Shown here piece by piece: positions 57,061-58,757 of a stretch of DNA of 64,000 nt; the stretch's first letter is position 1; the number at the start of each line of letters is the position of its first letter. The DNA lies in assembly GCA_013360215.1 (NCBI GenBank), contig JABWCP010000007.1:62001-126000 (forward strand), read 5' to 3'. The notes under the pieces were generated by a model. It made no database searches. It saw only the letters and a program-made list of their open reading frames with translations, and was not told the DNA's origin. Origin of the DNA: a bacterium (GTDB taxonomy: Bacteria > CLD3 > SB21). Made by a program: the position numbers and the translations under genes.

Positions 57061-57086
57061 AGTGGTTTTCCGTCTTAAAAATAAGC

Positions 57087-57202
57087 GCCGGCATAACAGA
57101 CACACCCGGACATCAAACGATACAGCCGTAAGCTGTATGTAAACGAATCGTACACGTACTCGGGTCCTGGATATCGGGGGAAGGCGGGAACGTTATGCCG
57201 GC
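57087..57202 (-). promoter_or_regulatory. Structured leader-like element upstream of the cNMP-binding gene
   Basis: An 11-bp perfect inverted repeat, GCCGGCATAAC at 57087-57097 and GTTATGCCGGC at 57192-57202, closes about 95 bases that contain ACCCG/CGGGT and the perfect hairpin ATACAGC-CGTAA-GCTGTAT (57120-57138). The element ends 27 bases before the ATG and, on the minus strand, is followed by a T-rich run. The nested stems look like RNA rather than a protein-binding site. Identity unknown. Beyond it to 57376 I see only a small hairpin (GGACT-CCTAT-AGTCC, 57220-57234). Confidence 0.5.
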
Positions 57203-57376
57203 AAAAGTTTTCATACACCGGACTCCTATAGTCCTGTAACTTAAGATAAGGCTAATGACTCGACTGCGCGACGACGTAGGTCATCACGATGTGTGATATG
57301 CGTCAGCGGTTTAAGTTAAATGGCCCTAAGTTGTTGAGATTTATAGAAGTTCAAAGTATGAGGGGGGAGGGGATGC

Positions 57377-57727
57377 TCAAGGCTGAATTTTTATACGTTC
57401 TTTTTTAGGGAGTTTTTTGACGACTTCGTCGTAGGAATGATCAATCATTAGAAAAATTTCTTTATCCGGCACGGATCCGTCCAAATACACGCTATTCCAC
57501 AATTTTTTATTCATGTGGTATCCCGGTTGAACGCCTTCGTAACGCTCGCGCCATTCGATGGCTTTTTCAGGATCGGCTTTGAGATTGATAAATTCGGCAA
57601 TATGGGTATTGATGAGAGCGAAAATTTTTCCACTGACCCGGAATACCAATGTTTCGTGATCAAACGGAAAATCCTCATCGGTTGATTTTTTCTTAAGACA
57701 ATATGTGCGGATCGTTTCGAGATTCAT
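57377..57727 (-). CDS. MmcQ/YjbR family protein
   Basis: 116 residues, the usual length. Family marks: N-terminal ETIRTYCLKKKSTDEDFPF, then LVFRVSGKIFALIN, YHMNKKLWNSVYLDG and the C-terminal helix DHSYDEVVKKLPKKER. The fold resembles the double-wing DNA-binding (CyaY-like) domains; the true role is unclear. Its start lies only 36 bases downstream of an intrinsic terminator that ends a structured leader, so it may be controlled by attenuation. Confidence 0.9.
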   Translation of the reverse strand: MNLETIRTYCLKKKSTDEDFPFDHETLVFRVSGKIFALINTHIAEFINLKADPEKAIEWRERYEGVQPGYHMNKKLWNSVYLDGSVPDKEIFLMIDHSYDEVVKKLPKKERIKIQP

Positions 57728-57762: not shown

Positions 57763-57791
57763 AAAAAACAGAACCCCGCTTTTCAGCGGGG
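57763..57791 (-). terminator. Intrinsic terminator closing the structured leader
   Basis: Minus-strand stem AGCCCCGCT region: CCCCGCT pairs with AGCGGGG across a 4-base loop, then TTCTGTTTTTT. It lies between the leader and the MmcQ/YjbR start codon. Confidence 0.8.
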
Positions 57792-57946
57792 CTCAACGAT
57801 TTCCGGGAACCCCCGTAGCACGTCGCTAGCGGGCATCACCGGAGGTTCCCATTAAGTTATGCTTAATACGGATCACCTCCTATCCCCAGGGTTGAAACTT
57901 CTCGCCTGAAATCGCCCTGAACAATTTCACGCGAAGCGTTAATTAC
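57763..57946 (-). ncRNA. Candidate structured RNA or attenuator leader upstream of MmcQ/YjbR gene
   Basis: On the minus strand a strong promoter (57953-57981) precedes about 180 bases rich in stems: ATTAAG-TTATG-CTTAAT (57851-57867), GGAGGT/ACCTCC enclosing it (57841-57846, 57875-57880), and GGGAACC/GGTTCCC (57805-57811, 57844-57850) enclosing a CCCG/CGGG hairpin. The second and third stems compete for the same bases, so the RNA could switch. It ends with terminator CCCCGCT-AGCGGGG plus T run. It may be a free ncRNA (e.g. 6S-like) or a riboswitch; I could not match a known class. Confidence 0.5.
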
Positions 57947-57952
57947 GTATTA

Positions 57953-57981
57953 AACTTACAAGCTATCCTTTCCATTGTCAA
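57953..57981 (-). promoter_or_regulatory. Promoter of the structured leader
   Basis: Minus-strand TTGACA at 57981-57976, 17-base spacer, TAAGTT at 57958-57953. The -35 is perfect, the -10 matches 4 of 6. Between this promoter and the repeat array at 58055 nothing else is seen. Confidence 0.5.
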
Positions 57982-58054
57982 TACTCATTTTTGCAGATGA
58001 CGCTCCTGTTGAAGTATTGTTCTGAAAACATCAGTACATACGGCTTGCAAAAAA

Positions 58055-58757
58055 ACAAGTTCTCGCTAAGACGCTAAGTTTTTAATTACAATCGAAACAT
58101 TTTTTATCTTTGCGGCTCTGCGAGAGGTTATTATTGATGGTAGCTTCAGTAGGTGCACGACACCTCGGTACGTCGCTTCGCTCCTACTCGGTGTCAGATA
58201 GCATGCGCCGAGTTGAGGGTTCTGTAAAGACAGAAAACATATTCTCGCTAAGACGCTAAGTTTTTAATTACAATCGAAACATTTTTTATCTTTGCGACTC
58301 TGCGAGAGAATTTTATTGATGCTATCTTCAGTAGGCGCACGACACTTCGGTACGTCGCTTCGCTCCTACTCGGTGTCAGATAGCATGCGTCTAGTTGAGG
58401 GTGCTATATATATAATAATATAGACAGAAAACATGTTCTCGCTAAGACGCTAAGCCTCGAAGTGCAATCGAAGCGTTTTTTATCTTTGCGACTCTGCGAG
58501 AGGTTATGATTGATGGTAGCTTCAGTAGGCGTACGGCACCTCGATACGTCGCTTCGCTCCTACTCGGTGTCAGATAGCATGCGCCGAGTTGAGGGTTCTG
58601 TAAAGACAGAAAACAAGTTCTCGCCAAGGTGCTAAGTTTTAAATTACGATCGAAACATTTTTTATCTTTGCGACTCCGCGAGAGGTTATTATTGATGGTA
58701 GCTTCAGTAGGCGCACGACACTTCGATACGTCGTTTTGTTCCTACTTGGTGTCAGAT
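58055..58757. repeat. Four-unit tandem array of about 182-bp intergenic repeats
   Basis: Units begin at 58055, 58237, 58431 and 58613 (lengths 182, 194, 182 and a shorter last unit of about 145). Each starts with TTCTCGCTAAGACGCTAAG, an imperfect inverted partner of CTTTGCGACTCTGCGAGAG about 30 bases on, then carries a GACACC / GGTGTC hairpin around GTACGTCGCTTCGCTCC. Unit 2 has an extra TA-rich insert; unit 4 is more diverged. The array resembles interspersed repeats of environmental bacteria. No gene is credible here. From 58758 to 58852 nothing further is seen except a GCTCGCG/CGCGAGC hairpin. Confidence 0.9.

Follow-up and report, generated by a model that had tools for sequence, protein, structure and literature searches.

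A family of free-standing, pseudoknotted small RNAs with an extended Shine-Dalgarno sequence and a short open reading frame, apparently undescribed, in distant bacterial groups

The stretch of DNA analysed here (64,000 nucleotides, hereafter the window) carries on its minus strand, at positions 57763–57981, one representative of a family of free-standing small RNAs with a pseudoknot. The family occurs in several distant bacterial groups and appears not to have been described before. A DNA pattern scan followed by covariance models yielded 21 distinct members of one anatomy, i.e. the window element and 20 others. The member lineages are Calditrichota and Gammaproteobacteria, plus two family-level lineages (G239, and family f7 with G013, G202 and G341). 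Shared among them are a pseudoknot, an extended Shine-Dalgarno sequence, a start slot, an open reading frame (ORF) of 12–15 codons, a hairpin with the stop codon in its loop, and a terminator. We read the element as a stand-alone small RNA of ~180 nt with its own promoter and terminator, that is, as a structure-gated mini-mRNA which is probably translated, and assign this reading a probability of roughly 0.6. No description of the family was found in Rfam 15 or in the titles and abstract openings of the open-licence PMC literature.

The bistable structured RNA proposed in the original prediction is real, with its stems, two mutually exclusive pairings and terminator all present in the window. 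Its 186-nt fold reaches –78.4 kcal/mol, as compared to a mean of –57.4 (sd 4.35) for shuffled sequences (z = –4.83), and none of 200 shuffles folded as low. On the minus strand, GGAGGT (57880–57875) forms a stem with ACCTCC (57846–57841) and GGGAACC (57850–57844) one with GGTTCCC (57811–57805); the bases of the middle segment are common to both stems, which thus exclude each other. The element is closed, ahead of the following gene, by an intrinsic terminator consisting of a 10-bp hairpin and a T-rich tail (57794–57764, minus strand). A terminator is likewise found in 21 of 21 members, 78–141 bases downstream of the start of segment A (see below). The promoter, which had been called strong, is so only in its –35 element. 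The likely promoter (57953–57981, minus strand) combines a perfect –35 TTGACA (57981–57976) and a 17-nt spacer with a poor –10 TAAGTT (57958–57953). No promoter was called at this site by a promoter scan, and in a second scan its score was matched or beaten by 23% of shuffles and is hence not above them. Better promoters lie at the matching place in several relatives, as illustrated by TTGACA-17-TATAAT in L058.

The original prediction had not picked up three features: a pseudoknot, a short ORF, and a segment complementary to the 3′ end of 16S rRNA. The pseudoknot is built from four minus-strand segments which follow each other in 5′ to 3′ direction as the 5′ strand of P0 (57926–57934), the 5′ strand of P1 (CAGGG, 57915–57919), the 3′ strand of P0 (57902–57910) and the 3′ strand of P1 (CCCTG, 57887–57891). 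As the 3′ strand of P0, the first helix, sits inside the P1 loop, the arrangement corresponds to an H-type pseudoknot. Nine of nine P0 pairs show two-sided changes, in the 14-sequence as well as in the 21-sequence alignment, and P1 is nearly invariant, the exception being one CGGGG/CCCCG replacement in L058. For the structure without P1, 91.5% of the cells are paired across 21 sequences, as compared to 39.9–57.1% in six slid versions, and the covariation score amounts to 0.493 versus 0.216 in shuffles (0 of 500); both figures derive from an alignment fitted to the covariance model, which favours the structure. The same covariation picture was obtained with a MAFFT alignment of 14 sequences that was not fitted to the model. 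The pseudoknot and the covariation in P0 together identify a conserved, structured, aptamer-like domain.

A few bases past the 3′ strand of P1 follows the extended Shine-Dalgarno sequence, which in the window reads AGGAGGUGAUCC and is complementary to the 16S 3′ end. Segment A (AGGAGGTGATCC, 57870–57881, minus strand), the extended Shine-Dalgarno sequence, is without mismatch complementary to the 16S 3′ end that the window genome carries, GGATCACCTCCT, the 3′ tail of its 16S rRNA reading GGATCACCTCCTTTCT. GGAGGTG occurs in all 21 members.

Downstream of segment A, the window holds a short ORF (57826–57867, minus strand) with an ATT start slot, 13 codons and a TAG stop, encoding the peptide IKHNLMGTSGDAR. 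The frame is conserved: the ORF is in frame in 20 of 21 members, the exception being L082. The start slot lies 7 nt past GGAGG in 19 of these 20 ORFs and 8 nt past it in the window. It is occupied by ATT or ATC in 14 members, by ATG in five and by TTG in one. An in-frame stop, be it TAG, TAA or TGA, ends all 20 ORFs after 12, 13, 14 or 15 codons, is followed by C in 17 of them, and lies in the apical loop of the downstream hairpin in most members. Further examples of the peptides are ISSRSIMGASGRAR (L055), LSSHSIIWGASGKTC (L065) and MSNRCIIGAPGGTC (L077), and the last residue varies between R, C, E, I, F, L and N, with Cys in several members. Conservative codon changes in the common frame exceed those in column permutations, the observed score being reached by one of 500; this test did not include L082, the extra codon of L065, or any start or stop codon. 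On three subsets alone, 133, 70 and 44 of 500 permutations scored at least as high. The subsets thus do not clearly pass the test by themselves; it takes all members together to give the signal. Moreover, the conservation of G-A-S is partly structural, as the residues of segment B are constrained by pairing. Owing to its shifted frame, L082 does not figure in the ORF table, in the coding test or in the duplex test described below, while the fold comparison, R3 scoring, covariation test and terminator count include it. Compared to L066 from the same genus, L082 (1501–1616) carries one extra base in the G run of the ORF, for which a sequencing error, decay to a pseudogene or a genuine change of frame could account. 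Extended Shine-Dalgarno sequences give access to conserved AUU and AUA starts in Staphylococcus aureus, with infC, cvfC1 and ccpN among the examples described (PMC13009471). By analogy to these starts, we take the ORF of the present family to be probably translated. Like the family, the S. aureus cases pair over a long stretch with the tail of 16S rRNA and have a conserved AUU/AUA start, but as described in that study they are ordinary protein genes, whereas the family is a structured stand-alone RNA of 180 nt.

The mutually exclusive pairings centre on segment B (GGGAACCTCC, 57841–57850, minus strand), which pairs either with segment A, hiding the Shine-Dalgarno sequence, or with segment C (GGTTCCC, 57805–57811, minus strand), which together with P3 gives the hairpin that holds the stop codon in its loop. 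When the first 12 bases of A were held open, a hairpin between B or its flank and the sequence after the stop was predicted in nearly all members; in L033, the hairpin partner of B does not lie within the 88 bases folded. B:C duplexes formed from a member's own segments average –13.1 kcal/mol versus –10.4 kcal/mol with dealt-out partners (0 of 5000 deals, 20 of 21 members), in a test that does not control for the relatedness of the members. The A:B stem is part of the minimum-energy fold in 11 of 21 members and is weak in the gammaproteobacterial-class members L074 and L076–L078. From this we conclude that B:C is the better conserved, general feature, and that the bistable design is limited to the window and part of the family. 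Conserved covariation of both stems had been put forward as support for a switch; the alternative stems do recur in relatives, but A:B weakens in Gammaproteobacteria. Inspection by eye further showed that GGGGTTC (57813–57807), overlapping C, could pair with the terminator arm GAGCCCC in the window only, and no such antiterminator pairing between C and the terminator arm was seen in the relatives inspected. In these, the switching stems and the terminator have no bases in common, so the design of an attenuator is not conserved.

The pattern scan covered a species-level genome collection and used AGGAGGTGATCC, a gap of 10–39, and GGAACCTCC. It returned eight hits, two of which were intergenic and showed the remaining anatomy (metagenome assemblies of Calditrichia and Gammaproteobacteria). 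The hits L028, L030, L031, L032, L034 and L035 were dropped, the surrounding anatomy being absent by eye. Three covariance models were built, from the window sequence alone (R1), from the window and the two pattern-scan members (R2), and from 14 sequences (R3). In nine genomes of the window's phylum, R1 found the window only. R2 identified members in 10 of 40 genomes in the phylum of the Calditrichia assembly, in at least 3 of 386 genomes related to that of the window (the latter included), and, in a smaller search, in 3 of 11 genomes. The remaining R2 rows of the 11-genome search had E ≥ 0.046, and eight that were inspected proved coding-like or 16S antisense; L046 and L047 are antisense of a 16S 3′ end and not members. 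With R3, one of 39 further genomes was identified with confidence (G013), and six rows with E of 0.026–0.098 in that search were without the motif. R3 also found at least 4 of 369 genomes in the class of the gammaproteobacterial assembly, 3 of 24 in the order of one gammaproteobacterial-class member, and at least 5 of 386 genomes related to that of the window. The rates from searches of more than 40 genomes are lower bounds, because few candidates were scored per genome. The 21 members score 29 to 121 bits with R3, 14 of them having been used to train it. Neither R2 nor R3 gave a convincing member in eight further genomes that were searched from the phylum of the window, so the distribution is patchy, be it that copies were lost, were transferred, or are divergent and were missed. 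A BLAST search of the window RNA against its own genome and 60 genomes retrieved itself and short chance matches only. Viral contigs gave no matches to three patterns, and blastn of L075 against plasmids and phages returned none.

The original prediction placed the element as a leader of the MmcQ/YjbR gene, an assignment that the genomic context does not bear out. The yjbR gene (57377–57727, minus strand, Pfam PF04237) is judged to lie outside the element. A yjbR match was found in nine of nine genomes searched, the window's own included, and five genomes of the same family (G001–G005) and one of the same class (G008) have yjbR without the leader, the upstream position being taken by another gene or plain spacer; the copy in G006 is cut by a contig end and the match in G007 is only distantly related. 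Nine downstream genes on the same strand as a member were tested, and they represent eight different families (hydrolase, AMP-binding enzyme, UbiE methyltransferase, TetR regulator, amino-acid permease, response regulator, mechanosensitive channel and EamA transporter) and one gene without match. In other members, the next gene is on the opposite strand. The element thus does not hold a conserved position upstream of a regulated gene and, since yjbR occurs in relatives without the leader and the following genes are unrelated or oppositely oriented, is not a yjbR switch. Its own terminator and the lack of a conserved downstream gene are the marks of a stand-alone small RNA. As a side observation, L060 and L061 have neighbours on both sides in common, including a downstream ORF on the opposite strand which we take to be bacilliredoxin-like.

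The preferred reading as a mini-mRNA can be phrased as a sequence of steps. Transcription of the RNA would start at its own promoter and stop at its own terminator. Following the 5′ pseudoknot, the Shine-Dalgarno sequence would pair with nearly the entire single-stranded 3′ tail of 16S rRNA, and this long pairing would allow the 30S subunit to initiate at a weak codon (mostly AUU or AUC, elsewhere UUG or AUG). The ribosome would then read about 14 codons up to the stop within the hairpin loop. Segment B would act as the gate, the RNA being off when A:B hides the Shine-Dalgarno sequence and open when B:C forms downstream. We infer that the output is the translation of the ORF, either through its peptide or through the ribosome on it. 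Counted against the mini-mRNA are the inefficiency of AUU/AUC starts, the broken frame of L082, and the presence of A:B in only 11 of 21 minimum-energy folds, as well as the coding-test results on the subsets, the partly structural conservation of G-A-S, the eight genomes of the window's phylum in which R2 and R3 gave no convincing member, and the window promoter that does not exceed shuffles. Possible, if rather doubtful, is a non-coding regulator, whose long Shine-Dalgarno sequence would act as a decoy for free 30S subunits, or for the 16S 3′ end, and so sense or buffer ribosome availability, with the short frame as a by-product of structure. A 16S complementarity longer than initiation needs, the predominance of AUU/AUC in the start slot, and the conserved B:C pairing would suit such a decoy. 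It is at odds with changes in ORF length that preserve the frame, with AUG at the start slot in five members, with the interchange of three stop codons at the stop slot, and with the conservative nature of the codon changes. Similarly tentative is the notion that the peptide itself is the product, e.g. a signalling or modified peptide ending on Cys in several members and on Arg in others, and that the RNA structure merely regulates its translation. The peptides MSNRCIIGAPGGTC and MSHRCIIGFSGGAC from the gammaproteobacterial order point in this direction, as the pattern of the peptide is kept there even though A:B becomes weaker. The last residue, however, is not common to all members (R, C, E, I, F, L, N), and no conserved neighbour gene for modification or export accompanies them.

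The initial proposal, a riboswitch or attenuator that controls the downstream gene, is very unlikely to hold. The conserved bistable structured RNA is retained from that proposal, and the pseudoknot adjoining the Shine-Dalgarno sequence, the alternative stems, the window terminator ~37 bases upstream of yjbR, and the potential pairing of GGGGTTC with GAGCCCC seen by eye in the window would fit it. Control of yjbR in cis is not retained, given the yjbR copies in relatives without the leader, the unrelated or convergent downstream genes, and the failure to see such an antiterminator by eye in the relatives inspected. The SAM-II and preQ1 translational riboswitches also combine an H-type pseudoknot with a nearby Shine-Dalgarno sequence that can be hidden, as does the family; unlike in these, its pseudoknot precedes a 14-codon ORF in a transcript of its own, and no gene association hints at a ligand. 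The original prediction had not recognised any known class, and indeed the window element is without a match over the gathering threshold in Rfam 15. When nine of the other 20 member loci were searched against Rfam at permissive E, only sub-threshold matches were obtained at the element, and the low scorers isrJ, rnk_pseudo and anti-hemB stayed far below their gathering scores. Hardly any weight is left for the element being the 6S RNA of the window's lineage, or its tmRNA in reduced form. Size, own promoter and own terminator would agree with 6S RNA, a match to which had been named as refuting the original prediction. The 6S model RF00013 has no match in the window genome (G000) at E ≤ 10; in 14 control genomes, it matched in eight, over the cut-off in four. 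Judged by the Rfam model, 6S RNA is thus excluded. In the mRNA-like domain of tmRNA, a pseudoknot lies directly before a short ORF, which is followed by a stop codon in a hairpin loop, and the family shares all three traits. Still, ARAGORN finds no tmRNA at 21 of 21 member loci; the family differs by initiation via Shine-Dalgarno, by its intrinsic terminator, and by having no detected tRNA-like domain. The presence of a Shine-Dalgarno sequence and the absence of tRNA-like ends also speak against this reading.

The dual-function small RNAs SgrS/SgrT, Spot 42/SpfP and RNAIII likewise are short transcripts with their own terminator and a small ORF. What sets the family apart from them is the recurrence, across distant lineages, of a pseudoknot, a near-maximal Shine-Dalgarno sequence, an ORF of ~14 codons and a stop-bearing hairpin. 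Speculatively, the RNA could engage ribosomes and, inherited widely but patchily, serve on its own to sense initiation capacity or free 30S subunits, where the state of translation, and not a neighbour, is the signal. It is likewise conjectural that such a sensor is built like the message half of tmRNA and loaded by a 10–12-bp pairing with 16S rRNA. Structured RNA families that span Calditrichota, Gammaproteobacteria and other lineages and have no entry in Rfam 15 are already a rarity. Pseudoknot, near-maximal Shine-Dalgarno sequence, weak starts and a tiny conserved ORF are here joined in one free-standing transcript, which makes the family a compact system, provided by nature, in which to ask how cells are regulated by the structure of initiation sites, by the choice of start codon and by very small peptides.

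Some observations were made in the vicinity of the members. In L066, a CRISPR direct-repeat match (2261–2288) lies ~700 bases from the member, the sole such locus among seven scanned. In the window, a widely spaced inverted repeat (GCCGGCATAAC ... GTTATGCCGGC, 57085–57210) with smaller stems inside was recognised by eye, upstream of an ORF with a cyclic-nucleotide-binding domain. Just upstream of the element, 58052–58757 is occupied by a tandem array with a unit of ~182 bp in 3.8 copies, which by eye contains an internal inverted repeat.
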